The notes below the pieces were generated by a model. It ran no database searches, was not told the origin of the DNA, and worked only from the letters and a program-made list of their open reading frames with translations. From Pontederia crassipes (taxonomy: Eukaryota; Streptophyta; Magnoliopsida; Commelinales; Pontederiaceae): a stretch of 64,000 bases of DNA. The stretch spans positions 25,556,552-25,620,551 of the forward strand of contig CM060183.1 in assembly GCA_030549335.1 (NCBI GenBank), written 5' to 3'. This document shows positions 1 through 56,500 of the stretch, piece by piece. Made by a program: the position numbers and the translations under genes. The first letter of the stretch is position 1; each line of letters begins with the position of its first letter.

Positions 1-3000
1 TTTTATCAATGGACTTGCCTTTTTCATCTTTATCTAATTTTGTAGTAGTGCTCATAGGAGTTGTGCTCTGCTTACATTCGTTCATCCCGAATCTTTTGAG
101 TAGTTCCCTTGTATATTTTTCTTGATTTAGAAAAATACCTTTCTTGGATTGTTTTACTTGTAGGCCTAGAAAGAAGGTGAGTTCTCCTATAAGACTCATT
201 TCAAATTCTTGTTGCATAAGGGCTTCAAACTATTTGCATAGACATTCATTAGTAGCACCATAAACAATATCATAAATATAAATGTGAACTATTAAAATAT
301 TATTTTTAAAATATTTTAAGAACAATGTGGTGTCAACTTTCCCTTTTTGAAAATCATTTTCAATTAAAAATGAACTCAATCTTTCATACCAAGCTCGAGT
401 GGCTTGTTTCAATTTATAAAGAGCTTTTGAGAGTTTGAAAACATGATGGGGAAAATATGAATTTTCAAAACCTTGAGGTTGTTCGACATAAACTTCCGCA
501 TTTATAAAACCATTCAAGAAAGTCGATTTAACATCCATTTGAAAAAGTTTAAAACCTTTATAACATGTAAAACCTAAAAGCATTCGAATTGCCTCAAGTC
601 TAGCAACATGAGCAAAAATTTCATCAAAATCAATCCCTTCAATTTTTGAGTAACCCTTGGCCACTAATTTAATCTTGTTCCTCACAATGACACCATTTTT
701 ATCTAACTTGTTTCGAAAGACCCATTTGATTTCAATGATAGGATGGTCCTTGGGTCTTTCTACAAGTTTCCACACTTGATTTCTTTCAAAGTTATTTAAT
801 TCCTCATGCATTGCATTTATCCAATTTGGATCTTCAAGTGCTTCATCTATATTGTTGGGCTCATAATTTGCAAGAAAAATCGAAAAAGCACATAAATTTT
901 TTAAAGAATTTCTATTTTTATGCCTTCATTTACCTTACCTATAACTTGATCAAGTGGATGTGATGAGGCATATATCCAATTTCTTGGGATGATTTGATTC
1001 TCTTCTCTTTGAGGTACTTCCATTTCTTTCGCCTTTGGAGTGTTATCTTTTGCTTCTTCTATGTCCACAACTTCAAGTTTTCTTTGTACTTCAACTACTT
1101 CTTTATCATCATCCTATGTTTGTTTGCTCAAAGAATCATTAGTTTCATTGAATTTAACATTAATAGACTCTTCAACAATTAATGTTCTTTTGTTGTATAC
1201 TCTATAGGTTTTACTTGTATTAGAATAACCAAGAAAAATATCATCATCACATTTATCGTCAAATTTGTCTAAATTATCTTTAATGTTCAAGATATAACAT
1301 TTACATCCAAAAACTTTAAAATATGAGATGTTTGGTTTCTTACCAAATAATATTTCAAAACATGTTTTCTTTTCAAGAGGTCTAAGTAGAATTCTATTGA
1401 GAACATAGCAAGATGTGTTTACGGCTTCCACCCAAAAATATTTTGGTAATTTACTTTCATTTAAGATTGTTCTAGCCATTTCTTGTATAGTTCTATTTTT
1501 TCTTTCTACTACTCCATTTTGTTGAGGTATTCTAGGAGTGGAAAAATTATGAGTAATTCCATTTTCTTCGCAAAATAATTCAAATTTATGATTTTTAAAT
1601 TCTCCTCAATGGTCACTTCTAATTTTTGAAATCTTTTGTTCAAATTCGTTTTGAACTCTTTTTGCAAATTTGAAAAATATGTTTAGCGTTTCATCTTTAC
1701 TAGCAAGAAAAATTGTCCAAGTGAAACGAGAGAAATCATCAACAATTACAAATACATATATTTTTCCTTCTAAACTAGTCATATCAATAGGCTCAAACAA
1801 ATCAAGATGTAAAAGTTCCAATGCCCTATGCGTACTAATAACTCCTTTTAATTTAAAAGAACTTTTGGTTTGTTTACCTTTTAAACATGAATCACAAACA
1901 TTGTTTTTCTCAAATTTGATCTTAGGTAAGCCTCTAACCAATTTATGATTTGAGAGTTTATTTAGCAATTTGTAATTTGCATGTCCTAATCTCCTATGCT
2001 ACAAGTTTATGTCATCATGCACGACACTAAGATATTTTTCATTTTTCAATTTATCAAAATCAATTTTGTATACATTATTGTACCTAAATCCCATGTGTAA
2101 AATTTTGTTATTTTCATCTAGTATCAAACATTTGTCCTTCTCAATTTTAACTAAATAATTTTTATCACAAAGTTGACTTATGCTAATTAGATTATGTTTT
2201 AGATTTTCAACAAGTCAAACATTTTCTAAATACACTTTGTCATTCTTACAAATATTACATATACCAATTACTCTTCATTTACTATTGTTTCCAAAAGTGA
2301 CTTTACCTCCATTTTTCTTTTTCAAATTGATGAAATTTGAAGCATCGCCGGTCATATGCCTTGAGCATTCACTATCCAAATATCATTTACTTTCATTGTA
2401 CATAGAAGCTTCCTACAAGAAAGAAATTAGCAGTTTCTTATTTTTGGTACCCAAACTTGCTTGGGTCCATCTTAGTTAGTCATGGTCCTTTTCGGGATCT
2501 AAATTTTCTTTATTCCTTTGCTTATTCATTTCCTAATTCTGCAATCATAAGAATAATGCCCTTCATATCCATAATGAAAATAAACAATTTGTGATCTTGT
2601 GTAATCATGTGATGCTTTAACAAATATAATTCTTTTGTCATTCTTCTTTTCAAAAGAGGTGAAACCAAGTTCCTTTTTGTTTGAAGATATTCTAAATCCA
2701 CTAAGTATTGCGTCTAACATTTTACTTCCATTTGAAAAATTTTCAAGTTCAAGTTTCAATTGATTAATTTGTTTGTTCAAACATACACTTTCTACAATTT
2801 GTCTTTTACATATTGATTTTAGTGCACTATTTTCCATTTTCAATTCTTCAATTGAAAGTTCTAAGCTAGATTTATTAATTAGACATCTAAACTCCTTATG
2901 CACATTGAAAGATTCACTATCACTATAGTTATAGGAGTTACATGATACCTCATGGCTATTAGCCATTAGACATATGTAGGCTTCCTCGTCATCACTGGAA

Positions 3001-5046: not shown

Positions 5047-7310
5047 TGAGATTCAATACCAAGAAGGCATATTAGACAGATTATTCATTCCAAATGGCCG
5101 TTCAGACAGAGTCGGTGGTAAAGAGTTGTCCATCATGAACCTATAAACAGAATTCGCCTTAGTCACACCCTGGGTATCCATCACCCAGTGCCAGGACATC
5201 ATTGGCAGCAATAGGCAAATACACAGAAAGAATGCAGTTAATTAATTCAGGACCAAACATCTCAGAGAGTAGCATATGATTCCAACAGTGGTCGTGGATA
5301 AGATCTTTAACTAATAAATCTTGAGAAATGCATTTGACATTTATATATGAAGGTTTCCATGCAAGAGGTATACTAAAAATCCAAGGATCATTTAACATAA
5401 ATGTATCATTCCTATTACCAATCATTTTCATAAAACCAAGCTTGGTGCAGTTCATAGTATTCATAAAGGCTCTCCAACACAAAGAGAAAAATCTAGGAGG
5501 AATATTATATATCCACGAATGAATAATACCATATTTATGCTTGACAAGCTGGACCCAAGGAACATTTTTGTTATTTAGTAGGTCAAGAACTCTTTTTGCC
5601 AATAAGGAGGTGCGGATGTGCTTAAAACTTTTGGTACCCAGCCCACCACAAATCTTGGGCTACTGAATAGTTTCCCAATTGATCAAATGGATACCCCTTT
5701 TCACACTATTCGAGCTTCAAAAGAAAGATCTGTTGTATTTTTCAATGGCGGTAATGATTCCATTAGCAATATAAGAGGAACTAGAGGCATACACAGGGAT
5801 GGAATTAATGACATAATTAATAAGAACAATTTTACCAGCCTGATTAAGAAGGATTTGCTTCCAGCCAGTCAACCTTTTAGCAATCTTATCAATAATACTT
5901 CGCTGAGTATTAATGGAGATATATTTGAAGGAGATATGGATACCCAGGTAATAGAAATGAAAGAGCCCACACGAAAATTAAGGATATTTTGAACTACACT
6001 TTTCCTGGTGGCAGCTAATTTAGGGGGATAAAATATTTCAGATTTATTATGATTCACCCTTTGATTAGTGAGATGCTCATAAATTTGGAATAATTTCTTC
6101 AAGACAATACAATTTGATTTAGTTGCAGCAATACAAATGAGAAGGTCATCAGCATACATAAGGTGACCAAGCTTGAAGGAATTGATGGAGTATGGAATTA
6201 GAGCATCCATATGGACTTGATGATTAATCAGAGAGGTCAAAACCTGTGAAACCAAAATAAATAAATAAGGGGACAAGGGGTCACCCTGCCTAATCCCCTT
6301 ATGACTGATAAAAGAGGTAGAGACATATCCATTGATATTCCAGGAAAAAGTGGGAGATTTAATACAGGTGAGAATCTAGGATATAAAGAGAGGAGGGGAA
6401 TTTATTTTTATGATGATAGTTTCCACAGCATGCCAAGAGACTCTGTCGAAAACTTTTTCCATATCCACCTTAAACATAAGGAACTTTTTTCTACCCCTAG
6501 CAATAGATTGGGTGACCTCCTGAGCAACAATAATGTTGTCCTGGATTGACCTATGAGGTATGGAAGCATATTGGCATTGGTCAATCAAGGAGTTAAGAGT
6601 AGGTCTTAGCCTCAGAGCCATAACCTTGGAAGTGATTCTATATAGCACATTGCAAAGAGATATTGGCCTAAAATTAGAAACCCTGACAGGGAATTCCTTC
6701 TTGGGAATGAAGATAAGAGAGGTGTGGGTCCAATCAGAGGAGAGGGAGAAAGAAGAAAGGGCCTTTCTAATGTGCATGCATATATTCGGGCCCACAATAT
6801 TCCAATAGTGCCTATAGAATTCAATAATAAAGCCATCAGAACTAGGAGCCTTTCCAGAGCCCATACTCCAAAGACAGTCCCTAATCTCATAGTGAGTAAT
6901 AGGTGCGGTCAAAGTATGCCACCAGTGGTGACCAAGCTTAGGAAGATCAGACCAAGTAGAAGGGCAAGTATTGAGCAGTTCAGACATCCAGAGGTCCTGA
7001 TAGTGCTTCACAAAATAATTAGAAATCTGAGAGTCCTCCCCAAGTGTAGTACCCTCACTAGATATGATAGAATTTATATGGTTGGATTTGGATCTAATGA
7101 TGGTAGACATGTGAAAGAACTTGGTGTTCTTATCCTCGTGATTTAATAAATTGACTTTGGACTTAATCCACCACTTAAGGTTAATCTATCTGAGGTAAGT
7201 CAGATGTTTGTTGTAGAAAACTCTAAAAGTAATCAACTCAGTGTCAGTAAGACCTGAAGACTCATCCTTGTGTTCTAGGAACTATATTATTCATAGATGT
7301 CTAGATTCAT
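5047..7310 (-). mobile_element. L1-type LINE fragment with reverse transcriptase
   Basis: Minus-strand frames give, in order, a region just upstream of RT (DKNTKFFHMSTI, about 7100-7140), the RT core with FRPISLCNVLYRI (about 6600-6700) and FKVDMEKVFDRVSW (about 6430-6490), the YADD catalytic box (about 6150) and a zf-RVT type C-terminal stretch (5100-5602). This is the non-LTR RT of plant L1 elements. The frame changes between segments, so it is inactive. The apurinic endonuclease is not seen. The coding stretch still reads at 5050-5150 and stops where the copia LTR begins, so the LINE was probably the landing site; its 3' part should lie beyond the left edge. Confidence 0.9.
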
Positions 7311-15923: not shown

Positions 15924-15964
15924 CAACAACAACAACAAAGCCTTATCCCACTACATGGGATCGG
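15924..15964 (-). mobile_element. 41-bp tail-only retroposed insertion
   Basis: A 41-bp insert, minus-strand sense, consisting only of the common SINE/RTE-LINE 3' tail: GTAGTGGGATAAGGCTTTG plus TTG repeats. It is flanked by perfect 17-nt direct repeats CATATATGTGCAAGAAA (15907-15923 and 15965-15981). Target duplications of this length are the mark of target-primed reverse transcription, so this is a complete, extremely 5'-truncated insertion and not a chance match. Confidence 0.9.
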
Positions 15965-15981
15965 CATATATGTGCAAGAAA

Positions 15982-16787
15982 GAAAGAGATTATTGGGATC
16001 TTAAGAACCTCATTTTAGACTGTTCTCAACTACTGGACACCTTCAAGTTAACTCAATTTTTAGAGAAGCAGACCACACAATTTTTTATGATAATGGATAT
16101 AACTAAGCAGTTTGCATTTTTTTCAAAGAAAGGAGCATCAAGTGAAAATTGAATTATAGAAAATGTATACATAGATTCGATTTTACACTTCTCTATATGA
16201 AATTCATTTGACATAACAACACTAGAACCAAAATCTTCAATAATATTATAAATTCCACAAATGAAAACTTGAATAATATGTGGATAACTTAGAAGATAAA
16301 GATAGAAGTTCCAATTTTATCGTATGTCTATGCTAAGGATGACAAAGAAACAAACGTCATACACAAAAGAGGATACAAGAGATTTATGAGGTTAATTTTT
16401 AACTGGATTGCATCCTTGGTTGGCAACAAAAAATTATTTGAGTTGAAGAATCATAAACAAACTACCCTGGAGCCCTCCCCTCCTTAAAAATATCACCATG
16501 TATCTCCTCAGGACCCTCCCTAGGCTCATTGATGGGTGGGCATCGGAAGCCACTACATATGGGGAACATATGGAAGATACAAATTAAGAATTCCAGATAT
16601 AAATATACCCTCGAGATTACATCTACCTTTTATTTATAGTCTATTGAATCCTGAACTTCTGTCCTAATTAGGGCCTCAACAATCATGAATAAAATCTTAA
16701 ACCAAATAGAAAACTATAATCCTTTCCCAAATAGAATAGATTAAGAAAATAGTCCTAGACTTCAAATTAATAAGAATTCTTTAACAC
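15982..16787. other. Non-coding spacer
   Basis: No gene supported. One open frame (15850-16152) runs across the 41-bp insertion and is accidental. Confidence 0.45.
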
Positions 16788-16804
16788 TTAATAACCTCGG
16801 TCTA

Positions 16805-17652
16805 TGGATCACAGTAATAAATGTCCAATGTGTCGAACAGTTTTGTTTATTAGTCCCAGAACATATCCAATAAGGTATCATTCTGTGTTTTGTTATAAAA
16901 ATGTCATTTCTTGAAATGAAAACATCAGTCTAGATATGAAATGTGCGATCACTTTATAGTTGCATTGATAAGTTTGTTTGTCTTTGATACATTATTAATC
17001 AGTATTCTATTTTGATGGTGTAATGTAGGAACACTTTCTAATTGCAGTCTCATATTCAATGTTTCAGTGTGACATTAAACAACATTATACAAAGAAACTT
17101 TCCCGAGGAGTATGCAGAAAGGAAGACTGAGAATAAAAGTTTGACTCACTTAGGTGTTGATATATTGCCTCTTTTTGTCATGGATGTTGTTCTCCCATGT
17201 CAAAAGTTGTCGCTTAACATATTTGAACCTCGCTACAGGTTAATGGTGGGTGATGCCTTTTTTTTTCTGCAGTTCTAAGTATTTAATTGTCTTAGAATTT
17301 AGTAAGTACTCTTCCGTTTGAACTTTTATGTATCTGGAAAATAATTATCATAATCTATTTGAACTTGGGATTTATAATCAGTTAGCAATTAAAGTAGTTT
17401 AGTAATTGGCCTTTAGTCATAAGGTATTTTATGTTTGATTTTGTGACAAACCATTTATATGCTATATATGGTCTCTTACAACTCCGCCTATGTTTTATAG
17501 CCAGTCCCAAGCCCGGATAAAGGAGGAGGGTTGTGTTAGGCCCCGACAGCCAGCGTAAAACCCTGTCGAATCTCATGAACATGGATCAACGGCGTCGTTT
17601 GATCCATGTAGCCGACCCCACCTAGTGGGATAAGGCTTTGTTGTTGTTGTTG
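16805..17652 (+). mobile_element. Chimeric retroposed segment: LON exon plus SINE tail
   Basis: An 848-bp block ends in the SINE-like unit and its TTG tail and is flanked by perfect 17-nt repeats TTAATAACCTCGGTCTA (16788-16804 and 17653-17669). Within it lie a LON-domain exon with an intact acceptor site and the surrounding intron-like sequence, then the SINE. All point the same way. The simplest reading is that an unspliced transcript of a LON-domain gene with a SINE in an intron was copied from its SINE tail and inserted here as one unit. The first and last bases are set by the direct repeats; the last two T could belong to the tail. Confidence 0.75.
17068..17245 (+). pseudogene. Single exon of a LON N-terminal domain / RING finger protein
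   Basis: The frame after a TTTCAG acceptor reads VTLNNIIQRNFPEEYAERK, then PLFVMDVVLPCQKL and NIFEPRYRLMV. This is the start of the Lon protease N-terminal (substrate-binding) domain as found in plant LON/RING finger proteins, which are E3-ligase-like and not proteases. The similarity fades after RYRLMV, where GT donors lie (17238 or 17246). The RING exon expected upstream and the rest of the LON domain downstream are not found within several kilobases. With the 17-nt repeats around the larger block, I read this as one exon carried in by retroposition, not a working gene. Confidence 0.8.
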
Positions 17653-17654
17653 TT
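17480..17654 (+). mobile_element. SINE-like element, copy A
   Basis: It starts AACTCCGCCTATGTTTTATA, has the internal GGAGGAGGGTTGTGTTAGGC stretch and ends in CCTAGTGGGATAAGGCTTTG with TTG repeats. It is near-identical to 18391-18557 and 41131-41308. The last bases overlap the right direct repeat of the larger 848-bp insertion. No clear duplication flanks this unit alone, which fits its being carried within the larger segment. Confidence 0.85.
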
Positions 17655-17749
17655 AATAACCTCGGTCTAAACTTCCTCAACAAGATTGTTGGATCATATA
17701 TGATTCTAGGTTTTTAGATGAATGTTGCACAACATCATTCTCTTATAAT

Positions 17750-19100
17750 GTTTAACTTTTTTAAAAATAAAATGATCAGGCTCTAGAGTAACATTCAATA
17801 ATGTCATAATACAAAAGATTCTGGAGGCCTGAGGGGGCATTTGTTCCACCTAAATTAGCAAGATAATGTGCAATTCTATTACATTCTCTAAAAGTGTGAT
17901 TGGTTTTTAAATGATCAAAATGAGAGATGATGTTCTAGATGTCTAACATCCATGATGTAGGACTTTATCTGGGATATTAACCTTTGAAGGGAATTCCTTG
18001 ATGCATGACAGTTAGGATTGCATTCCATGATTGTTTGTCAATTTTTTTCGTATCAATTTGATCATCGTATATTTTTACTTACCATGTCTATAGAGTGAAC
18101 CACTTCTTACGTAATCAAGATGTTGACATGAAGATCTATGAACCACTTAAGCACATGGTGCTAGGATATGAATGTTTTCAAAGTTCCTTTAAGTCTCTTG
18201 GCTAAAATGTTTTGCCACAACCCTATATAGGACATTGCATAGTGCAATGGATTTGCAATTCTTGATTACTTTCATGTTGATTTTCCTTGGAATGAAGATC
18301 AATGAAATATCAATCCAATTAGAGGGCAACGAACTAGTTTCAAAGAAAATTTATATTTTTTTATTATTTCTTTCCCTTGGTGTTCTAGTACAACAACAAA
18401 ACCTTATCCCACTAGGTGGGGTCGGCTACATGGATCATACGACTTCGTTGATCCATGTTCATGAAATTCGACAGGATTTTACGCTGGCTGTCGGGGCCTA
18501 ACACAACCCTCCTCCTTTATCCGAACTTGGGACCGGCTATAAAACATAGGCGGAGTTCTTGGTGTTCTAGTAGTGTGTATAAAATTCAATAATGAATCCA
18601 TTTGGTACAGAATATTTGTCAGGTGGCATTGCCCATAGTCTGTATTTGATTTCTTTGGTCTCGCAGCTTGGGTCAAGGGTACATGCCAATAGCCATTTGA
18701 GGTGGGTAAATTAGAAAAAGCTTCAAGATATCTGTCAAGATTATTATTTTTGTTCCACAAGGATTGGCAGTGTTGTTACCCATTTCATTCTAAATTAGCT
18801 TGATTTGACTCTTTTTATGTCTCGTTATGGCGCTAAGGTGAAAGAATTTTGAATTATTGTCGTCATTTTTAAGCAGTTGACTTTGGACTTGCTCCACCAA
18901 TTAAGATTAATTTGTCTAGTTAGATATGACAATCGTATAGTGATTTAAGTTGTCCCCATTCATCATTGTGGTTTTGAGTTATATTCATTTGTTCAAGTTT
19001 TTTAATGTCTCTTTTGGTTGTTACTGATCTGTTTTCTAATTTGCTTAAACTTTTGATGTTCCGTTCTTAAGTTTTGTTTTTTTTTTATCGAGTTTAACGC
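17750..19100 (-). mobile_element. L1-type LINE relic 2
   Basis: Minus-strand sequence at 17800-17980 encodes an RNase H-like end (RECNRIAHYLANLGG). About 18180-18340 and 18575-18960 match the LINE at 5.0-7.3 kb in order (for example the TTGGAATGAAGAT stretch at 18285 against TTGGGAATGAAGAT near 6700). Parts are deleted and no long frame remains. A SINE copy sits inside it. The outer ends are approximate. Confidence 0.75.
18391..18557 (-). mobile_element. SINE-like element, copy B, with target-site duplication
   Basis: A 167-bp unit, minus-strand sense, from AACTCCGCCTATGTTTTATA to the TTG-repeat tail. Perfect 15-nt repeats CTTGGTGTTCTAGTA flank it (18376-18390 and 18558-18572). The exact duplication defines the full-length ends of this family. 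It lies in the L1 relic and is therefore younger than it. Confidence 0.93.
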
Positions 19101-20290: not shown

Positions 20291-21436
20291 TCAAACTGGC
20301 AGTGACAACCTTGTTCTGATAGAAAGCTGAAGACAGAAGGTCAAACATATAGTGAATATGGCCATCGACTTCGCACTTATATACTTCATCACCTCCAAGC
20401 CCCTCTCCACCATGTCTTTGCGAACTACGCTGACACCTCTGCTTGAAACTTCACAGAGCTTCCGGAATAGGAAATCAACAAGAGACCTCACAACACTTTC
20501 TATTGAATTCTCCCAGCGTTTGACGTCAATACCACTCGTCTCACCGCAGGAATTCACCTTGGTGGGCCGATGTGCAGTGGACTTGTCGCCTCCTTGGTTA
20601 ATGCTCTCTGCCGTGCCCGAGGATATTGTTCTCGTGCTGGTGAGCACCTGATGAGAAGTCTTCACGAAGGTTTCAACAGCTCCGTTGCACACCGAAACAA
20701 AGATCTCCTTCACCTTGGCCTCGTGCTTTGGATTGGTCAGGCCTGCAAAGAACTTGTCGTAGGCGTCGATCGTTGTCCCCTTGCCGAGGTAAACAGTCAC
20801 TGCGGAGCTCACGAGTCGCCGGAGGCACTCCTCGACGAGTCCTCTGCACTTCACGTCACAAATCAATTGTCCCGCGCCACGGTCACCCTCTTCGACCGAC
20901 GGCCATTCGTCCCCGGAGCACCTGCCGGAGTCTGTCGAATGGAAGCTGAAAACCAAACTTTCTGCCAAACTTCCAAAGATAGACGACGCAAAAGCGGAAC
21001 CCGAAGCGGAGAAGAGCCTGTCCAGAAACCGATCTGAGAAGCTCTTGCAGTCACCGCGTACATCCCGCTTGCAAAGTTCAGCCTTTCTGAGCCCGCGAAC
21101 TACTCCAGCAGCCACAGCCTCCGAAACCCTAGAGAAGGACCCCGATAACTCCTCTGACCGCGCGACCTTGCCGAGCTGTCTCAATCCGGACGGAATCTCG
21201 TCGGAGTCTGACCGGAGGAAGTCATTCAAGTCGGAGGAAACGAGTGAGACAGCCTCGACGGTGGCGAGCAAAGCGGAAATGAGCCTCTCGAGCTTCCGCC
21301 GCCGCCGCGCTACGTACGGATGGTGGTGGAGCTTGTAGACGGCGTAAACGGAGAGTCCGGCGGCGGCGAGGACGAAGAGCCATCGACGCCTCCGCCGGGA
21401 GAAATGAACAACCGTCTCGGAGATTTTTGCAGACAT
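20291..21436 (-). CDS. PHLOEM PROTEIN 2-LIKE A10 family membrane protein
   Basis: An uninterrupted 381-aa frame. Residues 13-18 are a basic cluster (SRRRRR), followed by a hydrophobic helix (about 19-36, WLFVLAAAGLSVYAVYKL) and a second basic stretch, an arrangement that suggests membrane anchoring. The motifs DLNDFLRSDSDEIP and KVARSEELS (about 67-96) are typical of plant proteins annotated as PHLOEM PROTEIN 2-LIKE A10. A last hydrophobic segment (about 356-373, MAIFTICLTFCLQL) lies just before the C-terminus. The family's molecular role is not established; despite the name, I see no PP2 lectin domain. The start is the first ATG of the frame, followed at once by the basic N-terminus. Codons are strongly GC-rich compared with the AT-rich flanks. 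No frame damage is seen. Confidence 0.9.
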   Translation of the reverse strand: MSAKISETVVHFSRRRRRWLFVLAAAGLSVYAVYKLHHHPYVARRRRKLERLISALLATVEAVSLVSSDLNDFLRSDSDEIPSGLRQLGKVARSEELSGSFSRVSEAVAAGVVRGLRKAELCKRDVRGDCKSFSDRFLDRLFSASGSAFASSIFGSLAESLVFSFHSTDSGRCSGDEWPSVEEGDRGAGQLICDVKCRGLVEECLRRLVSSAVTVYLGKGTTIDAYDKFFAGLTNPKHEAKVKEIFVSVCNGAVETFVKTSHQVLTSTRTISSGTAESINQGGDKSTAHRPTKVNSCGETSGIDVKRWENSIESVVRSLVDFLFRKLCEVSSRGVSVVRKDMVERGLEVMKYISAKSMAIFTICLTFCLQLSIRTRLSLPV

Positions 21437-23617
21437 CCACCAGGAAAATAAGGAAAGGGATCGACTAAGCTAGGGTTTGGGTGATCGCCGGAAACGGGAG
21501 TTGGGTCGCTTCCCAGCCGGCGGTAATATTCCCGGAAGGCGGGGAGAACTTGTCCGGTTGAAAGGGAGAAGAAATGACTAGTTGGAAAAAGGGCATGTAA
21601 AGCGTTGGAATGGGGTCCACCGTGAGGACGACTTCAGATTTTTGGGGACGCCATAGGGGTAATATAGTCAATTATCTTGTAAGTATTGATATTATAGAAA
21701 AATAATTGTGATGGATGAATTTTAATGAATGTTTGAATAAAAAAATAGATATTGTAAATATAAAATAAAATTTTGTTAAAAAATAAAAATTAATTGTTTA
21801 TTAATTTTTTAAAAAATATATTATTTAAATATAAACAATCAAAATTTTAATAATTTATATTTAATCAAATATTAATTTTTTTAATGAAATAATAAATAAA
21901 ATAGTATTATATTAATTTTTATTGTAAATATTTTATATGTAACAAATAAATTATTTTATATAAAAAAGATAAAAATAATAAAAAAATTGAACAACCAACT
22001 AAACCAGTGCAATAGGTTCAAGTGATTCATAGTTTCACTCCGCTAAATGTGACTCGATTTCGTCTTGAAAATCACCTGACTCAATTTCTACTTGATTCCC
22101 CAACCAAACAGTCATATGGTTGAATTTAAGTATTTCGGGTGCTCCGATTCGAGTTTTGGTTGATTCAATTTGATTCCTTAACTAAATAGGGTTAAGTTTA
22201 AGTGTTTCATGGGTGCTCCGGTTAGAGTTTTGGAATAATTATGCTGAGAAGAGAATAAATTCAATTAGTCATATACCGTTAATCTCGAATATCGAATGGC
22301 TATACGGTAGACTCGGGTCAGCAGACTCAGCACAGAAAAAAAAAACATCCGGAATGTGAAGCAACTGGAGTTGATGATGTACAAATGTATTATTTCAATA
22401 CGGCTTAGTCACTCAGAAAAATATGAGAAACGAATGCTGACCAAGTGCAAAATATTATTCCTTGAACAAGTGGAATATATATATATATATATATATAAAA
22501 AGTAGCATGCAACTAAATTTTGTACAATTAATATGTAACAAATAAATATAATTATATGGTTGAGATTCAACTTCGACTTAATGTTAAGTTATTAAATTTA
22601 ATCTCAATCATATAATCATCATCTAATCATTTAAATTAGAAATAACCTGACTTTCTTTTATTATTTTGGGACCAATTTTTTTCAACCAAATCAGTTTTAT
22701 CCCTTCTCCTCTGGTGGTTTTTTTTCCTCTTCAGCCAAAGAGATTTTCCCGTACCGCCGCTCATTCAAGATTGGTGTCTATGCTTGTTGACGTTCTTTGT
22801 TACATATCACTCGCACTATTTGTTCGTTGAAGCACCGATCGTCCTTCACCCTCCAAGCTGCTACGCAGCCCATGGATCTCCCCCACATCAGCTGCCATGA
22901 AGGTATACTCACTAGGCTTCTCCGTCCCTCTTTTTCCCTCACAGCATGGTAAGTCGTGCACATAGGTAATCATGATTTATATATATATAATTAAATTGAT
23001 AAGTTATTTCTAAATATATTTAAATTAAACGAAATATCATGATAAAAATTGATTTAAGAGATTAATTCCAATGAGTTGATCAAAATATAAGAATTGTAAA
23101 GATAAAAAAATATATTTTTTTAAAAAAATAAATATTAGTATCTGAAGATATAATACATTTCTTTAAACAAAACATAAAATACTAATTAATATTTTTATAA
23201 TAAATAAATTTTTAATATTTTTATTCATATAATACAATACATTATATAATTAATTTATTGATTAATAATGTTTATTTCTAAATTGTTTTCTTCTAAAAAG
23301 TTAGGCTTGAATCTTGAGGTCTTTAATAAACATATTTAACAAATAATTTTTTGTAATTTTTCTATTGATTAAATGCTTGTGCAATACTTGTTTTAAAGAT
23401 AGATAAATGTTTAATTTAGAATTAAATTACGATAAATGATTTTTAAAAATAAAAGGTGTATTTAAAAATATAATAGCTTTAAACAAAAGATAGTAAATAA
23501 AAATATATTAATGTTTTTTATAATAAATATTGTATACGTAATGGATAAAATATACAATATTCATTATTTGCAAAATTACGTATATTATATAGTTAATTTA
23601 TCGATGTTCAACTTTCA
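21437..23617. other. AT-rich spacer
   Basis: Upstream region of the minus-strand gene. It contains an AT microsatellite (22475-22497) and a two-copy repeat of about 80 bp between 22090 and 22235 sharing GGGTGCTCCG and GAGTTTTGG. No gene is supported. No confident promoter element for the gene was seen. Confidence 0.45.
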
Positions 23618-29921: not shown

Positions 29922-30800
29922 TCCGGGGCAGATGGCCGGAATCGAGATATTACATGAGAGAGAGGGAGAGGGAAAGGAGGATCGGGAGTGGCCATGAACG
30001 ACAGATTGGCCACCCCCGTGTCGGATCCGACCGTCGCCCATTCCCGGATCGACTGCCGCCTGCCCCCGGATCGGCCGCGCGCCTGCCCCCGTACCCGGCA
30101 CCTGCGGCGGGATCCGACCGCCTGCGCACCGGATCAAGCGCGTGCTGTCGGATCTAGCTGCCTACGAGCTGGATTCGATCGCCTGCGATCGAATCCGGCC
30201 CCTGTGCGCTAGATTTGGCGATCCGCCACCTGATGCGGCTGGATTCAACCGCCTGATGCGACTGGATCCGACCGCCTGCGAGCCGGATCCGCCGCTTGAG
30301 TCGAGAGAGAGGAAATGGGGGAGTGCGGTCGGAGTTGACAAAGAGGAGGAGGGCAGCTCGAATCGTCGTTCGTCGGGAGTCGCCGCCGCCGTGGGAGAGA
30401 GAGGGAGAGGAGGAGAGATAGATAGGGGGACAAGGAGTAGGAAAGGAGAAAGGGGGAGGGGGAAAATATAGGGAGGGATGAGGGCGCGAGAATATTTCGA
30501 AGGGAGAGGGGGGAAAATTCGGCGGAAAAATACTAAAGTTAGCGACCGATATATCTTTCGGAATTAAAATAATAAAATTTTTTTAATAAAAAATATATAT
30601 TTTATCTCATATTATATGTATAATATTAAAATATCATATAGAGACACTTTTAATTAATATGGACTAAAATTTTAACATAATCATTATTTTTTATAAATCA
30701 CAATACGAGTCTTTAGATTTATAGAAGACATATTATAAAACTAATAAGAAGTAAATTAATAGAATTTTAAATAAAATTAATTTAAAGAAACAAAATTAGA

Positions 30801-31080
30801 TGATCGTCTTAGTTTTGAATCTTAAGTTAGATGACCTTAGAGTTATGACAACTTACGTTCGATGACAATGGACTTTAGAAGCTTAAATTGGATGACCTTA
30901 TTGTTATAATAATTTAAGTTTGACAATCATAACATTTCAAAGTTGAAGTTCAATGATTGTCTTAGTTTTGAATCTTAAGTTAGATGACCTTAGAGTTACG
31001 ACAACCTCCGTTTGATGATCGCGAACTTTAGAAGCTTAAGTTGGATGATGTTGAAGTTGGATGATTGTTATTTTAATACA
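30801..31080. repeat. 153-bp duplication in CACTA element
   Basis: The phrase CTTAGTTTTGAATCTTAAG followed by TTAGATGACC begins near 30808 and again near 30961, with similar flanking text, giving two copies with a period of 153 bp. Confidence 0.8.
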
Positions 31081-31089
31081 TATAATTAA

Positions 31090-31945
31090 TGATATTATTT
31101 TAATTATTGACAGGTATTTCCTTCGAAATTACTGACGGATGTTAAATCCTTCGCTAAATAAAATAGTTATATATTATTAACATTAATAATATTATATGTA
31201 TTAATATACATGACTAAAACCTTAATAATATTATACTATATTATAAATAATATAAATAAATGAAACGTAGATACGTATTATATTATAAATATTTATAATA
31301 AATTATTATTTTAATTACCCATGGATAATTCCTTCAAAATTATTGAAGGATTTGGTATTCATCGGTAATTTTGAAGAGAGTTACCCGTCGGTAATTAAAA
31401 TAATAATATTATTATGAATACTTATATATAAAATCTTATTATTAACATTAATAACATTACATGTATTAATGTACATGACTAAAAACATTAATAATATAAT
31501 ATTATATTATAAATAATACAAAATAAATGAAAGGTAGATAGGTATTATATTATAAACATTTATAATAAATTATTATTTAAATTACCGAAGGATAATTCCT
31601 TCGAAGTTACCTAAGGATTTGATATACGTCGGTATCCGAAGGGAACTACCCATTGTAATTAAAATAATAATATTCATTATGAATACTTATATATAAAATC
31701 TTATTATTAACATTAATAATATTTCATGTATTAATATACATGACTAAAAATATTAATAATATTATTTATATTATATATAATATAAATAAATAGAAGGTAG
31801 ATACGTCTTGTATTATAAATATTTATAATAAATTATTATTTTAATTATCAAAGGATAATTTCTTCAGAATTACCGAAGGATTTAAAATTCGTCAGTAATT
31901 CCCAATGAGTTACCTGTTGGTAATTAAAATAATATTATTTATTAT
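31090..31945. repeat. Tandem array, unit about 265 bp
   Basis: Three to four units start near 31090, 31302, 31568 and 31832. Each has a short block with TTACCGAAGGATAATT/CTTCGAA motifs and then a long AT-rich part containing ATGTATTAATGTACATGACT or a close variant. The first unit is shorter and the last is incomplete. Confidence 0.8.
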
Positions 31946-32122
31946 CACCTTTTATAATACATATCTATCTTTCAACATGTTTATATATTATTTTCTTAAT
32001 GCATTAATAAATATTATGATTAAATAAGTTATCATTATTTTTTAATTTCTCATAAAACATCTTTATTTTTTTATCTTTTTACTCATTTTTCTTTTAATAT
32101 ATTTTTATTTATAAAATATATA

Positions 32123-32370
32123 CGACAACAACAACAACAACAAAGCCTTATCCCACTAGGTGGGGTCGGTTACATGGATCATACGACGCCATTCCGCTCT
32201 ATTAGTAATCAAACCTTTCGGTATATTATTCGTCAATAGATCTTGCTTTATTAGTTCGTCAAGTGTCCGCCTTGATCTCCATCTCTCTCTTTTAATCGGA
32301 CTCCAGATTATTTGATCTACTCTTCTTACAGGCGCATCTAATGATTTTCTCTGAACATGACCAAACCATC
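32123..32370 (-). mobile_element. RTE-type LINE 3' end, 248 bp, with target-site duplication
   Basis: Read on the minus strand it encodes, with frame damage, a DGLVMF...PLDAPVRRVDQ-like tail, the C-terminal end of plant RTE LINE reverse transcriptase proteins (FGHV-RRP-DAPVRR). It then runs into CCTAGTGGGATAAGGCTTTG and TTG repeats. Perfect 18-nt repeats TTATTTATAAAATATATA flank it (32105-32122 and 32371-32388). It is a 5'-truncated insertion into the CACTA element. Confidence 0.88.
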
Positions 32371-33082
32371 TTATTTATAAAATATATATTATAAATAAAT
32401 ATAGAATATGAAATTGATAAATTTTAATATGCACTAAATTTTAACATAATGATTATTTTTAATATAAATCACAATACGACTCTCTAAACATATATATTAT
32501 TATAAAAATTAATTACCGACGATCGTGGCCTTCGAAATTACTGTCAGATCAATATCCCTCGATAAGTCCGAAGGGCAAACTCGTCTGTAATTTTAATAAT
32601 AAAATATTAACACACACGTATATATATATATTATTATAAATATAATTATCGATGATTTTAACCTTCGAAATTATCGACGGACTTAAATCCCTCGATAATT
32701 CCAAAGGATATTCCTATTGATAATGTATCAACGGATATTTTCCATCTATAGTAGCCAAGGATATTTTGGCCCTCAGTATTTTGGAAGATTTTTTCTATCC
32801 ATCGAAAATGACGTCAGAAGATGAGAAGGATTTGTGTCTGTCGAAAACTTGCTGTCGGAAATGTAGATGCGCCCCCGGTCAACGATGATAGGGAGGTTGT
32901 GGATTTGGTGACCAAAGAAGACATTTAGTATACTAGATCATCCCAAGATGATAAGTGAAGTTCCCTTGGGGGCTATTAACCACCACAACGTTCCGCCTTA
33001 CCTTCCTTGGTTGCTCCAGCTTTTTCTTGTCTGACCCTAATGAAGGTGCTCCGAGTTTAGGAAACCCCCGAGCCTCTCAAAG

Positions 33083-38439: not shown

Positions 38440-41400
38440 ATGGCCGCCGTAGCAATGCGATTTCCATCCTCTGTTCCCCTCCTCCGCACGCGGCAGAACC
38501 TCTCGTTGTGCCTCCGCGCCGTTTCTTCGAACGCCAACGCGAATCAGTCCCGCGGTGGGCTCCCGCGCTTCCACTCCCCAGTGCTTCCCTCCTCCAAGGT
38601 ATTCTGTCTTCATTCTCTTGAGCATTTCAGCAAACATTTGATGCATCTTAAGTATTTACGAAGAAAAAGTGGCAGGGAAGCGTTGTCCGGATCCAAGGCG
38701 ACGAGTTCTGGCACATGACGAAGGTGCTTCGCCTTGGAGCCAATGACAGGTACATGAGCGTGCGTTCTGGTGTATGCTTGTAGGCCGTCGTCTTGTACAT
38801 TGAACAATTTTTAATTTCTTGTGTCATTGGGGTCCAGAGTGGAGCTCTTCAATGGAAAAGGTGGTCTAGTCGAAGGTTGCATACAAAGTGTTGACCGCTG
38901 TGGACTTGACGTGATGGCACTTGAGGAACCGAAAGTCGTTGCCCGTCAGGGCATCCAGTGGCATGTTTATGCTGCATTTGGTGAGCGTTTGAAACGTTTG
39001 TTTGAACTAGCATCACTGTGTGGGCATTTTTTTTATAACAACAACAAAGCCTTATCCCACTAGTAAGCTACATGGATCATAATACGACGTCATTCCGCTC
39101 TATTAGTATTCTATTAGTAACCAAACTTTTCGATATATTATTCACCAATAGATCTTGCTCTATTAGTTTGTCAAGTGTCCGCCTTGACCTCCCTCTCCCT
39201 CTTTTAATTGCCAAGTGTCCGGCATTTTTTTTATAAAATTTTAATTTTTAATTCTTCCAGGGACACTAAAGGGTGGGCGTGCAGATTGGTTGGTTGAGAA
39301 ATGTACAGTATGTTTATCGTTTACATGTAAAACTAGTGAGATTAATTACCTTCTGATGAAAGTATGAAGTAATTTGTGGCGCTATGTTCTTATGTTGAAG
39401 GAACTAGGAGCTAGTAGTGTAACACCCATACTCACAGATCGATCTCCGACAATTGCTGAAAATCGGGTGGACAGGTTGGAGCGCGTTGTATTGGCAGCAG
39501 TGAAACAATGTAAATATCTTTGGGAATTCTATCTACTTATTAACTTTGCTATGTAATGGCGGTAATTTCTTTAATAAATTTTTTTATATGTTGTACCTCT
39601 TGCAGTATATTTTCTTTTCTATTTCATGAGGTGCAAAAGAAAACATTATACAACATATTTTCCTTTTCCTTAGGTCAGAGGCTACATCAGATGACTTTGA
39701 ATCCTCCTCTAAAATTTCATAACTTTCTACCGATTGTAAGTATTGCCTGTCTTCGAATGCTTCTTGTCTTGTATATGACAACTCCTTTCCGTGGTGCAAT
39801 TTTATTGTATTGGGTTTATCTTTGTTTAACCTCTTCCCAAGTTTATTGTAGTTTTTTATTTTTGTGGTAGACTGGTAGTATGAGCATACTTTATTTCCGA
39901 CTCCAGCTTAAGGATATCCTTAGATTAGAACTGCATGGTAATAAGAAACATAATAGCATAGCAACATGACATGCATAGATAAAAGACATCATATTTATTC
40001 ATTAGAGAATCCCTACCATGTAGATGTGTTTCCTTTCCTAGTCTCAGTATCAATTATCTCACTGGAAGAACAGCAAAAGAAAGCACTATGAAGGCGGATT
40101 CCTTCCTATGGATTATTGCCCTTGTGATAAGCTATCCCATGGTTGCATTATTTTTAACACACTACACGAAAAATGAAGGATCAATAGGTTGTTGATTGTC
40201 ATAATTAACAACTTCGAGATAACCCCTCTCAGAAAAATAAAAAAAGTATTAATGTATTGATAAGATTAGCTGGTGAATATTGATAATGACCTACATGCTA
40301 GTTATGGATGGTTTATGGAGATGTTTTATTGTGTAAGAAATATAACTACTGTGAAAAAGCAAAATATCACCTCAAAATCTGTACTGTTCATAATGTTTGT
40401 TGCAATGGTGTTAGATCCGGATTGGAATGGGACCTAAAAAGCCTCCGGTTAGGTTAAACTGATCGACCGGGTTAAACTCAATGCTTGAACTAGATAATAA
40501 TAAATAATAAAAGCATTAACATAGATATTATCACTTTAAGATTATAAATATAATAATGTTACTCTTTCTATCGCTTAATCTTTTAGGACAATAGTGGCAC
40601 ACCTAATTTAACATATTATCGTAGCAGAGGTCCAGAATTCAAATCTCGTCAAAATCCGTATTAAAAAAATAATTCCACCCTTAGTTGTCCGCGTGGCAGG
40701 CTAAGCTAAACTAAAGATTTCAGCAGCTCATATTTGTTGGGGAGTATTAAGATTGTTGGTTTTGCTGTCAATTTAAGTTTTTTAAAAAATTGGTAGCAGA
40801 TCTAATTTCATAAAGTTTTAGAGAAAGAGGACCTAAGTTGAATCCCTGGCGAAGCTTATATTAAGAAAAAAAGTATTTCTTTCCTTAGTTGTCCACGTGA
40901 TGGGCTGAATTAGACCAAAATTGTCATCAGTCCATACATGAGGGGAGTGTTAAGATTATAAATGTAATAATGTTTCTCTTTCTATCGGCTTAAGTTTTTA
41001 GTACAATTGGTATCACATCTAATTTAACAATTGCAATAAATATTATATCTTAACTTGGAAGGTTTAACAAAAAAAATGCAATTAAATATTACTCGATTTA
41101 ATTGTAAAAGTTTAAATAACATTTTTCTCAACAACAACAACAACAACAAAACCTTATCCCACTAGGTGGGGTCGGTTACATGGATCATACGACGCCATAT
41201 TCGTTGATCCATGTTCATAAGATTCAACAGGATTTTACGCTGTCGGGGCCTAACACAATCCTCCTCCTTTATCCGGGCTTGAGACCGGCTATAAAACATA
41301 GGTGGAGTTACTTTTTGTTATATTATAAAATATAATAATTTTCACAATTGATCACTGTTATTTTTTACAGTAATAAAAAAAATGAACAGTCCCACCTTAG

Positions 41401-47195: not shown

Positions 47196-48489
47196 CACTA
47201 AGAAAATTGAGATTTTTCGATGGGCCGTTTCCGACGGATAGAAATTCGTCGCAATTTACGACGGATAGTAATCCGCCTGAATTTTCGACGGTCACAATCG
47301 TCGGAAATGAAAATAATAAATTATATAATTTATTATATTATTATTTTATTTTTCGACGATTAGGAACGTCGAAAGTTTCGACGGATATCCATCCGTCGCA
47401 ATTTCTGACAGTCCTGACCGTCGATAAATGAAAAAAATATAATATAAGGAGTATTTTATTAATATAATTAGCGATAGTTCAAATCGTCATAATTTCCGAC
47501 GGTTCTAACCGTCGGTAAGTGAAAAATAATATAATATAAAAAGTTTTTTTATTAATCTAATTAGCGATAGTCCCAGCGACGGTCTGGACCGTCAGTAAAT
47601 TAAAAAATAAATATTATATATATGCCGCGGAGACTGAGACATATAATCAAATAATTTTTTACGATCTCGACCGTCAGTAACTTTAAAAATAATTAAATAT
47701 CATATATATATTATTAATATTTGCTTAGTTTTCGACGGTGGTAATTAAAAAATCACTCTCCCGCTGCTTTTTTTTCTTTTTCCCGCTGCTTTTATTATTA
47801 TTATATATATATCCACTCTCTATCTTCACTTTCTATTTCTTTACCTCTCTCCTCTCTCTCTCCCTCTCCTATTTTTCCGACGACACTCTCCCTCCCAGAC
47901 GACGACCCTCTCCCATCGGCGACCCCCTCCCCCCTCTCTCTCCCGCGGCCAGATCCGGCCGATCTGGCCCTCGCGGCCGGATCTGGCCGCGGGGGCCGGG
48001 TCCAATCGTTGGTGGTCGGATCTTGCCGCAGGCCGCGGGGGTCGGATCCGGTCGTGGGCGGCCGGATATGGTCGCTGGGGCCGGATCCAGCCGCGGGTGG
48101 CCGGATTGGCTGCCTGGCGGCTGGATCTGGCCACTGCCGTCGGATCGGCTGCTGGCGGCCGGCTAATTTTTTTTATATTAAAATTTTTTTTGTGACGGTT
48201 GCGACCGTCGAAAGTTTTGATGGTCGCGATGACCGCCGAAAGTTTCGACGATTGGGACGACCATCGAAAGTTTCGACGATCGCGGTCGTCGAAAGTATCG
48301 ACGGTTTCGACTACCGTCGGTCGCCAGACTTCCGTCGATTTTTTCCAATCGTCAAAAATTGATTTGCGATGATCATTTTTTTGACGTATTGGTTCCGTCG
48401 AATAACCCGTCGAAAATCGTCATTTTTTATGATTTTTGAGAAATTACAGACGGTTTGGACCGTCTGTAATTTCCGCTTTTCTTGTAGTG
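47196..48489. mobile_element. Small non-autonomous CACTA transposon with target duplication
   Basis: A 1,294-bp element starts CACTAAGAAAATTG and ends TTTTCTTGTAGTG, flanked by the 3-bp repeat CTA (47193-47195 and 48490-48492), the duplication length of CACTA transposases. Both subterminal zones are filled with CCGTCGG and CGACGGTT motifs in both orientations, plus a hairpin (ATTACAGACGG...CCGTCTGTAAT) near the right end. The centre (about 47860-48170) is a CT-rich leader followed by GC-rich GGATC(T/C)GG repeats. No transposase. Confidence 0.88.
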
Positions 48490-48705: not shown

Positions 48706-49392
48706 TGTTGGATCATAATTTCAACATTGAGTTTAATATGAAATAATTATACAATTAAAAGTTGTTAAAATATATTAAAACTCAAATAAAATGATCAAAG
48801 TATTCATGGACATATTCATTAATATAAAATGATATGAAATTATATGTGTAGAGGCAAAAAAAGTATATATACCATAAGGTTAAAGAGTGTATATATACCA
48901 AAAAGATGTATAAAGTTTAATAGATGTATATATATACCAAAAGGTATATAAAGTTTAAATGTGTATATATTTTCATATACTAAAATATGCATGAGGATAA
49001 AAGGGTATATACATCATGAACAAAAAGTGCACTAACGTCAAAAGATATATACGAAGATCAAAGGGTGCATTTGAATTCTTTTTTATAGGTGAAAATTCAA
49101 ATCCCTTATACCCATTATAAATAGATGGTCACGGTCCCTAAAACACACAATGAAATCTATTTGATGAAAAGTTCTTCTTTTACATTCCTCATTCGTGTTA
49201 AGAATAATAAATTTTTTGGTGTCATTTTGGAAGTCCATTCCATCAAGTGTTCGTCAACATAAAAAATTGATGGAAAACTTGTTCGTGATTGAAAGAGAGT
49301 GATGTATGACTATAAGTTTCCGCATTCAGTTTATTAAGTTTTTTTAATAATTTGTCATGATCCGATTTAGTTTTGTTATTTCAGTTCTTTCA
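48706..49392 (+). repeat. Left LTR of the non-autonomous element
   Basis: It starts TGTTGGATCATAATTTCAAC and ends TTCTTTCA. It shares long stretches with 50691-51373, such as AAATAAAATGATCAAAGTAT and GTCATTTTGGAAGTCCATTC. Confidence 0.85.
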
Positions 49393-50690: not shown

Positions 50691-50896
50691 ATTTGGAACA
50701 TAATTCCAACATTGGGTTTAATATGAAAATAATTATACAATTAAGGATTGTCAATATATTAAGGCCCAAATAAAATGATCAAAGTATTTATGGACATATT
50801 CATTAATATAAAATGATATGAAATTATATTAGAGACCAAAAAGTATATATAACAAAAGGTTAAAGGGTGTATGTATATACCAAAAGATGTATAAAG

Positions 50897-50937
<41 letters not shown>

Positions 50938-51373
50938 TTAAAGGTGTGTATGTTTTCATATGCTAAAATATGGGTGAGGATAAAAGGGTATATACATCAT
51001 GAACAAAAGGTGCATTAATGTCAAAAGACATATATGGAGATCAAAGTGTGTTTGAATTCTTTTTTATGGGTGAAAATTTAAACCTCTTGTGCCTATTATA
51101 AATAGATGGTTACGGTTCTTAAAACACACAACAACTTATTTGAAATTTATTTGGTGAAATGTTCGCATTTCCCATTCGTGCTAAGAAGAATAAATTTATA
51201 TGGTGTCATTTTGGAAGTCCATTCTATCAAGTGTTCGTCAACATAAGAAATCGATGGATAACTTGTTCGTGATCGAAAGAGAGCGATGGATGACTGTAAG
51301 TTTTCGCATTCAATTTATTAAGTTTTAATGATTCGTCAAGATCCAATTTAGTTTTGTTATTCCGGTTCTTTCA
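50691..51373 (+). repeat. Right LTR of the non-autonomous element
   Basis: Matches the left LTR throughout. It carries an additional TA microsatellite at about 50898-50932 that the left copy lacks. It ends TTCTTTCA before CTCAT. Confidence 0.85.
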
Positions 51374-53582: not shown

Positions 53583-56500
53583 ATGACGAAGGTAGCGTAC
53601 GGTCCATACTTCGACCCGGACTTCGACTCCATCGTCGAGCGGGTCAATCCAAGGTATCAATCTGTTCACCTCTACGCCATTTCTCTTTCGTTCTTCTTTC
53701 TTCTTTCTTCGCCGGCGCTAATTCGTGGTCGTTTCTTGGATCACGCCAGTGTTTGCATCGACAACGAGACGTGTCAGAAATGCACGCTCATCAAGGTTCG
53801 TTGCCTTCCGTGTCCCACCTTTGGCATTAGGGTTGTTTTTTATTCTTAAGATTGAAGTTATCGATCGCCGCCGGCGAGAGGAGTTAGGGGACGATAGGGT
53901 TTTAGATTCTTGGGGATTCCGGCGATCTCCGGGCAGCAGCTTGGGGCGCCCCGTGGCCTGCGGCTACGGGATCTGCGCGGATTACTGCTGCGATGACAGC
54001 GAGCGCGTGAGCTGTGCCTCGGGAATACATTGACGACCGACCACTTGGCGGAGAGGCCACGGTCCATGTTTTGTCTCGTTTTCCTTCTTTTTCTGCTGTA
54101 AAATTGACAGCTTTGTCTATTTTAGCTATTTTTGTTTCCTTTTTGGTGGCAAGGTTCTTTATGTTTCTATCATTATTCGAGATAATAATTGGTAATAGTA
54201 AATTAGTAACACGATGAAACTATGATGCACGGGTACTTCAATTTTCTCGACGTATTCGTACCGGGTACGTACTCGATATCGGTATTTCATGGGTACTCGT
54301 GGGTATTCGTACCTATAAGTACTCAATAATAAAATAATTTTAAAAAAAATGAGTACTTCAATGGGTACTCGTATCTATGCTATTGGGTATTCCATATCAA
54401 AATTTTGTCAGATAAAATTTTAAAAAAGATAATAAATGATTGATGATCATAGAAACACTAATACTAGAGAGCATGCTACATATGTATTTTGCTACGTTTT
54501 TATCAAATGTGAATAATAAAATATATAGATATTAATAATGAGTAATCATAAGGAGAAAGAAAACTATTAATAATTCTTCATTTAGGCATAATCAGTAAAG
54601 TGAATAATTAATTATTTATTTTGAAAACTTAAACAATACGAAGATATTAGAAATATTATGAAAATTTATTTATATATATATTATATATTTAATATATTAT
54701 CGTACTCGTACCTTAATTTTTTAAAATTTCACGTATCCCGTACCCGTACTCGTATCGTGTATCGGTATCGTATCGTATCCGTACTCTTGCAACATAGGGA
54801 TGAAGGAAAGAAGAAAAATGAGGTGGGCAAATTGGGCGTGGCTGCAGGTTGACAGCGATAACAGGCACGGGATACTGCTGGAGATGGTTCAGCTCCTGAC
54901 CGACCTCGATCTTGTCATCTCCAAGTCCTACATCTCCTCCGATGGCGGATGGCTCATGGATGGTATTCTCCTCTCAATCCTTTGCATTGTGTACCGGATT
55001 TGATTCTTATGTTCAATCGACAGCTCCTGAAAAAAGGATGCGAGATAGGGCTCAAATTTGATGGTATGTTAACTGGTGCAGTGTTCCATGTGACGGATCA
55101 GCTCGGCAGCAAACTGACGGATCCAACACTCATCCGCTACATCCAGCAGGTTTTGTTTCTGTCTGCCTCTTGGAACTTGTAATGAGCTTTCTGTTCGAAT
55201 CGGCAGTGATTTGCATATGGTATGATTACAGTCGTTGGTATCCGGATGCGGGAGCAGAGGCGTCGAGAGGCGAACGGAGGTCAGGACGTGCATGGGCAAG
55301 CTGGTCGGCCCCGGTCACCTGGCATGCGAGTACACCATCTTGGAGATCACGGCAACGGACCGTCCTGGCCTGCTATCCGAGGTCTCGGCGGTGCTGGTCG
55401 AGCTCGACTGCCAGGTGGTGTGCGCCCAGGCGTGGACCCATAACTCCCGGGCTGCAGTCATCCTCTACTTGGTAGAACGGTCCACCGGGATGACGATCGC
55501 CGAACACGACCGGCTGGCTCACATCAAGGAGCAGGTGGACAGCGTCGTCGAGGCGCACCACTGCCCCGATGAAAGATGGCGAGTGGCGGTCGCAGGGCCG
55601 ATGCCCGGGCGAGTCCACACCGAACGCCGGCTGCACCAGCTGATGCGCGAGGACCGGGACTACGAGGCCAACGACGACGGGAGGCGGGGTAACGCGCTTT
55701 CTTATTCATCATCACTGATCTCTCAGCCGCCGTCGAAGATAAAGACTTGGGCGTCGATCGATAGCTTGAGAGATAGAGGTTACTCTGTGGTTAACATCCG
55801 AAGCAGGGACCGTCCCAAGCTTCTGTTCGATACGGTTTGCACGTTGACGGACATGCACTACTCGGTGTTCCATGCCACCATCGGCGCCCATGGACCATTG
55901 GCGTTACAGGTCCGTACAGACGGCAGAAGCTCGATCCGGGGAAGAACCCTTGATCTATTATTGATAACTTTGTGACGTCGACGCTTTTGGATCTTGCAGG
56001 AGTACTATATCCGACACATGGACGGGTACACGTTGGATACGGAAGAAGAGCAGCAGAGGGTCATTCGATGCTTGCTAGCAGCTGTGGAACGAAGAATATC
56101 TCATGTAAGCAGTCCCCTAGATTCGATTCGTTCTCTATTTCTCCTGCAGATGCTGAAAAATCTTCTGGTTTGTTCTTTGAGTGACACTTTGTGGCGTCGA
56201 CTTTGTTGCAGGGCTTAAAGATTGACGTGTGCACCAAGAACCGGTCGGGGCTCCTGTCCGACATCACGCGTGTGCTCCGCGAGCACGGCCTCTCGTTGAC
56301 GAGGGTGGAGTGCGCAACGCGAGGCGAGAGGGCGGTGGGCACGTTCTACGTGACGGACGCTTCGTCGGGCGGCGACGTGGACCCGAGGAGGTTGGAGGCG
56401 CTGCGGGAGGAGATTGGCGAGAGCATCACCGTGAAGGTGAACAATAAATGCCTCGAGTGGGCGCCCTCCAAGAAGAACGGCAACAACGTAGTGGCGTCGC

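Follow-up and report, generated by a model that had tools for sequence, protein, structure and literature searches.

A putative RING/LON gene segment and a SINE-like element with a predicted 5' twister ribozyme inside one target site duplication in Pontederia crassipes

Anatomy of the inserted block

The DNA analysed here, referred to as the window, is a stretch of 64,000 nucleotides from Pontederia crassipes (assembly GCA_030549335.1, contig CM060183.1, positions 25,556,552 to 25,620,551 of the forward strand). Within it, 848 bp (16805-17652) lie between two exact copies of a 17-nt sequence. The block carries part of a putative gene, followed in the same orientation by a SINE-like element. 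Its features, in window coordinates, are as follows.

16788-16804, no strand: 5' copy of the target site duplication, TTAATAACCTCGGTCTA, exact repeat of 17653-17669
16805-16874, plus strand: 3' end of a RING-like exon, from translation and splice phase, without a profile match
16875-17067, plus strand: intron 1, retained, 193 bp, GTATCA ... TTTCAG, from direct reading and phase agreement
17068-17245, plus strand: exon opening a LON-like domain, from its open frame, a weak PF02190 match and a tblastn record annotated LON
17246-17479, plus strand: first part of intron 2, reaching to the element or to a template jump, from direct reading
17475-17534, plus strand: twister-P1 ribozyme match (RF03160), its first five bases in the flank
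17480-17652, plus strand: SINE-like non-autonomous element, full-length, 173 bp, aligned end to end with copies at 18557-18391 and 41309-41129
17588-17652, plus strand: tail common to RTE-type LINE 3' ends, closed by five TTG units at 17638-17652
17653-17669, no strand: 3' copy of the target site duplication, exact repeat of 16788-16804

At 17 nt and without a mismatch, the repeats have the form of a target site duplication, which flanks an insert with some 7-20 nt. The block ends as LINE and SINE insertions end, in a 3' tail: the five TTG units stand directly before the 3' repeat, which begins where the fifth unit stops. In 2000 dinucleotide shuffles of 16501-18000, in which exact words starting at the end of the element were sought upstream, the longest recurring word was 12 nt (2 of 2000), and 17 nt was never reached (0 of 2000). 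Among 2000 random positions in the window, 0.2% had a 17-mer that came up again 40-1000 nt upstream, a figure that still counts genuine duplications and tandem repeats. The block is one insertion, and since gene part and element both lie inside the repeats, their arrival in a single event is most likely.

The open reading frame extends two codons back into the 5' repeat, where TCT ATG encodes Ser-Met. Related plant proteins carry Ser-Met at the matching position, so the last four to five bases of this repeat may represent microhomology between target and cDNA, or microhomology with the gene.

The captured gene piece comprises part of the RING-like exon, the whole 193-bp intron, the LON-like exon and the start of intron 2. 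The first exon has lost its start at the 5' junction; its frame, read from 16807, gives DHSNKCPMCRTVLFISPRTYPI and leads to a donor, AG|GTATCA, at 16874/16875. After TTTCAG the coding sequence resumes at 17068 with S|VTLNNIIQRNFPEEYAERKTENKSLTHLGVDILPLFVMDVVLPCQKLSLNIFEPRYRLM in matching phase and is stop-free to 17245 (translation VTLNNIIQRNF...IFEPRYRLM). The 3' limit of this exon is assumed at the donor GTGGGT at 17246, GTGATG at 17250 being a possible alternative. The splice phase of the RING-like exon joins that of the LON-like exon, and both splice sites of intron 1 are kept. Since introns and splice sites are preserved in the block, the template was unspliced RNA.

The names given to the two exons derive from short, weak matches, and the gene can be called only putatively a RING/LON (LONRF-like) gene. 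Beginning at LPLF, 28 residues match the start of Pfam PF02190, the LON substrate-binding domain, at 13.2 bits (E 0.086, cut-off 28.7); none of nine shuffled controls of this peptide matched anything. A tblastn search of plasmids with 34 residues, at E up to 1, returned five records, the best of which, at E 0.02 and 50% identity, falls within a gene annotated as LON substrate-binding, the other four being unannotated there. The RING-like piece matched none of the families in the profile libraries; of a RING finger preceding LON it retains only the last Cys pair. In plant LONRF proteins the RING precedes the LON domain, and we call the first exon RING-like from its CPMCR motif and its position. 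Longer peptides across the gene piece gave ArsD matches alone, all weak (E 0.096-0.26). In searches of solved structures, one peptide found one weak ArsD chain, and no structure was found for 33 residues. The ArsD identity was judged to be due to chance and was rejected.

An earlier, sequence-only reading of this stretch had described an 848-bp block bounded by perfect 17-nt repeats, holding an acceptor-bearing LON exon, a sense SINE copy and a TTG tail. The exact repeats and the shuffle control bear this out, with exon and SINE each better termed "-like". That reading saw no other LON or RING exons nearby. A search of the six frames of the window by regular expressions for RING and LON motifs, which is a motif scan and not a profile search, indeed found none outside the block, while the RING-like exon inside it had been overlooked. 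A complete LON gene spanning the locus, named in the same reading as the finding that would speak against it, did not appear in the six-frame scan. The nearest long open reading frame downstream of the block (20291-21469, minus strand, 392 aa) has no Pfam match, and its sole match among solved structures is without any significant single stretch.

The element, its ribozyme and its tail

Elsewhere in the window, copies of the element or of its tail occur in five more insertions, each of them on the minus strand.

15924-15964, minus strand: stub of the same tail, 41 nt, with a 17-nt duplication
18391-18557, minus strand: ordinary copy of the element, 167 bp, with a 15-nt duplication, its 5' end at AACTCCGCC; twister match of 54.3 bits
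32123-32370, minus strand: RTE-type LINE end, 5'-truncated, bearing this tail and an 18-nt duplication
39039-39220, minus strand: RTE-type LINE end, 5'-truncated, bearing this tail and a 16-nt duplication, 90% similar to 32198-32296
41129-41309, minus strand: full-length copy of the element; twister match of 60.3 bits

A covariance-model search of Rfam, at E up to 1, placed twister-P1 at the 5' end of all three full-length copies. The focal element scores 54.1 bits (E 2.5e-9 in a search of the whole 64-kb window), nearly the same as the 18391 copy; E ranges from 4.2e-11 to 2.5e-9 over the three copies, none of which reaches the gathering score of 67.2. The matches span the whole model, each lacking eight positions in the first internal hairpin. 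The focal ribozyme is predicted as a truncated twister that falls short of the curated score (54.1 against 67.2 bits). The consensus cleavage step of twister is U^A. Cleavage of the focal ribozyme is predicted at 17479/17480, which is the 5' end of the element, and the predicted step also coincides exactly with the 5' boundary that the duplication sets for the 18391-18557 copy. The outer strand of P1 in the focal ribozyme comes from the flank.

Twister-P1 was the only Rfam match of the element at E up to 1, with no tRNA, 5S or 7SL head, and the 64-kb window contains no tRNA gene. A classical SINE has a Pol III head derived from tRNA, 5S rRNA or 7SL RNA. From its sequence the element appears to fall outside this class, a decayed head being possible, and the unqualified "SINE" of the earlier reading gives way to an element with a truncated twister match at its 5' end. 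A likeness to Au SINEs was considered and dropped: Au-like SINEs are described as ending in poly(T) (PMC3747384), and the head here matches twister.

There are precedents for such a ribozyme. A 2020 review, citing work in preparation, describes truncated but competent twisters conserved at the 5' end of retrotransposons of the RTE superfamily and regards these motifs as probably processing the RNA from upstream transcripts (PMC7761336). Twister variants have also been ascribed to non-LTR elements of Schistosoma, as cited in PMC11620745. The portions consulted of PMC8216279, PMC4918200 and PMC10085705 contain no mention of twisters in RTE elements. The sequence string of the ribozyme core does not occur in the open-licence PMC literature, and no relative turned up when viral and prokaryote contigs were searched for stray plant DNA by means of the ribozyme core, the LON exon and the tail (eight pattern matches, none confirmed).

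The tail links the element to LINE ends. The interval 17588-17654 matches the complement of 32127-32193 at 96%, and the element shares its tail with two LINE ends of the window, whose RTE nature is read by eye and from the TTG tail, not from a tree. In the insertion at 32123-32370 an open frame, WFGHVQRKSLDAPVRRVD...WRRMIHVTDPT, stands shortly before the tail; we take it by eye to be the end of RTE ORF2. Exact duplications of 15, 18, 16 and 17 nt flank four of the five other tail-bearing insertions, and for the copy at 41129-41309 no exact duplication of at least 9 nt was found. RTE LINEs of flowering plants reportedly carry (TTG)n or (TTGATG)n at their end; the tobacco TS SINE is reported to have about 100 bases in common with an RTE LINE (PMC3747384).

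The LINE end at 32123-32370 lies within a span of diverged tandem repeats (30752-32700), whose units include ones of about 263-267 bp. Elsewhere, two adjacent open reading frames at 5869-7185 (minus strand) match RVT_1 (E 5.5e-11 and 4.3e-15); they form a broken LINE, L1-like by eye, that is apparently not the RTE partner.

Routes to a joint insertion

Retroposition of an unspliced gene segment by way of the SINE-like tail is well supported, because the repeats enclose the block, the splice sites of intron 1 are kept and the TTG tail is that of RTE-type LINEs. To this extent the sequence-only account, in which an unspliced transcript was retroposed through a SINE tail, holds. Its read-through version had missed the second exon piece and the 5' twister, and in speaking of exon shuffling it went too far, there being no sign that the exon is used in another gene. 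An L1-type retrocopy primed on poly(A) is excluded by the TTG tail and the retained introns. The block does contain upstream host sequence within the same target duplication and in the same orientation as the element, which is the arrangement that characterizes 5' transduction.

Beyond these observations we infer a parent gene, an RNA in which gene and element were contiguous, a failure of cleavage and the enzyme involved. A RING/LON gene would have been transcribed, without splicing, through a sense copy of the ribozyme-headed non-autonomous RTE element in one of its introns. An RTE-clade LINE enzyme would have taken up the co-transcript at its TTG end, where target-primed reverse transcription would begin. 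Synthesis of cDNA would then have run to the 5' end of the element, beyond the expected cut of the twister there, and on across intron 2, the LON exon and intron 1, to halt inside the RING exon. We regard it as probable that RTE machinery retroposed in this manner a co-transcript that had escaped ribozyme cleavage, and so produced a 5' transduction. This estimate also covers a jump by the enzyme off the cleaved element and onto the upstream product of the same transcript; the sequence outcome would be that of read-through, and the element would likewise lie in the parent intron.

The presence of a ribozyme at the 5' end of the element makes plain read-through harder, since escape from self-cleavage is required, and it makes template jumping a serious rival. 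The condition of the focal ribozyme can be argued both ways. Three of its pairs are non-standard, two in P1 and a third, the A-C at model pair 37-48, in the core, as against one in each sibling, in P1; this would favour transduction. On the other hand, of the 35 conserved positions compared in the ribozyme, five are changed in the focal copy and six in each sibling (three of these being the shared deletion), so that the focal ribozyme does not appear clearly the most damaged of the three, a count that would weigh against transduction. The core change is from CCGG to CCAG. Because this is the usual context of methylation decay, the change may be younger than the insertion and reflect later decay. 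A junction at the exact predicted cleavage site also tells against transduction, as the same junction is expected from a jump off cleaved RNA.

In the strongest alternative, which we consider rather unlikely yet serious, an RTE reverse transcriptase copied cleaved element RNA as far as 17480 and then jumped in trans to a separate fragment of unspliced RING/LON RNA, the parent gene being free of the element. The coincidence of the gene/element junction with the predicted cleavage site is as this would have it. For R2, which also bears a 5' ribozyme, in vivo jumps off its 5' end have landed on U12 snRNA and tRNAs (PMC3414825), and chimeric retrogenes in a fungus have been traced to LINE template switches (PMC2104539). 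The recorded R2 jumps reached small RNAs (PMC3414825), however, whereas the acceptor here would be a pre-mRNA fragment ending within an intron, and a full-length element inserted in an intron would give the same junction.

The flank at 17480 offers a further means of comparison. Plant RTE LINEs and related SINEs are described as inserting at sites with a T-run some ten bases ahead of a TA, the duplication beginning at that TA (PMC13295347). If the element had once stood in the intron, its left flank would be expected to resemble such a target. The flank, CCATTTATATGC|TATATATGGTCTCTTAC|AACTCC, passes the signature at duplication lengths of 15 and 17, which is a weak fit given a window background of about 10%: once all lengths from 14 to 19 are admitted, 10.3% of 20000 random sites in the window pass, as do 75 of 367 sites in the captured introns. 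Two of the four control insertions that have duplications pass on reading by eye, and the site of the focal insertion itself passes by script. This test was adopted with the sequence already known, and its outcome favours read-through over the template jump only slightly.

It is improbable that the chimera was captured once elsewhere and became an established multi-copy composite, of which the block is one later copy. The family has been active, with two standalone copies in the window, and R2 with a captured piece of U12 is abundant in one fly (PMC3414825). Against this, the gene part is single-copy within the window, and a start inside an exon is what a single truncated event would be expected to leave.

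Least credible is a resident or DNA-duplicated remnant of a LON gene into which the SINE inserted independently: its exons and splice sites do look genomic, but the duplication encloses gene part and element jointly and abuts the tail, none was found adjoining 17480, and the motif scan of the window gave no other LON or RING motif. A resident gene was discarded because the repeats enclose the entire block and that scan showed no further motifs, and a later SINE insertion into a gene copy because the partner of the 3' duplication lies beyond the gene part.

Related systems and possible reach

The R2 ribozyme is HDV-like. The closest parallels to the element are the R2 SIDEs of Drosophila, which are likewise short, combine a 5' self-cleaving ribozyme with a LINE 3' end and are mobilised by the LINE (PMC3414825). 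They differ in targeting rDNA, whereas the element here has a twister match, an RTE tail and dispersed sites. The likeness extends to their parent R2, to whose 5' end other RNAs have been added in vivo; the addition here, unlike the R2 cases, is an intron-containing gene piece (PMC3414825). In trypanosomatids, a 5' ribozyme frees the RNA of L1Tc/ingi-clade elements and SIDERs from co-transcripts (PMC4035085). It is of the HDV-like class and in other hosts, and the text available from PMC4035085 mentions no gene capture.

The twister-bearing RTE retrotransposons resemble this locus in that an RTE-type element begins with a truncated twister (PMC7761336); host sequence kept upstream of the ribozyme, as found here, does not figure in what that review presents on them. 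Plant SINEs with RTE tails, of which tobacco TS is an example, share the TTG tail common with an RTE LINE (PMC3747384). In the present element no tRNA-type head was detected, in contrast to TS-type SINEs, and the head is a ribozyme match.

As an outcome, the block resembles the 5' transductions of human LINE-1 and SVA, in which upstream host-gene sequence is likewise found inside one target duplication (PMC13174262, PMC13317346). A 2026 study describes 17 L1 insertions whose 5' end carries mRNA or lncRNA, with recurring splice sites at the junction (PMC13174262). Compared with those chimeras, the present insertion involves unspliced RNA, a TTG tail, a ribozyme at the junction and a plant host. 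For plants, 5' transduction is unreported according to the relevant part of a 2026 review (PMC13317346). Among the matches listed in a search of titles and abstract openings of open-licence PMC papers, none concerned 5' transduction by plant SINEs or RTE elements.

The proposed transduction would provide a concrete route by which exons and splice sites move without splicing or poly(A), and it suggests that the 5' ribozymes of LINEs, besides giving clean ends, have an additional use in keeping host sequence out. More tentatively, it may be that when an intronic ribozyme is damaged or misfolded, unspliced upstream exons travel together with their splice sites to be planted at new places, and that when it is intact and cuts, the element moves alone. 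The 5' ribozyme of RTE elements would then act as a gate on host-gene capture, its loss would turn the element into an exon carrier, and this locus might be the first plant 5' transduction. One case in 64 kb cannot show the route to be frequent.

The window contains several further features. RVT_2, a domain of copia-type LTR retrotransposons, is matched by an open reading frame at 230-925 (minus strand, E 1.2e-51). Direct repeats at 48769-49342 and 50753-51326, about 1984 bp apart and 86-95% identical in pieces, could be LTRs or a tandem duplication. A long hairpin at 47274-47383 (plus strand), perhaps a MITE, gives a weak MIR5070 match (36.8 bits against a gathering score of 100, E 0.0022). 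An ACT-domain open reading frame at 55226-55975 (plus strand, E 3.2e-12), which matched no solved structure, is probably part of an ACR-like plant gene.
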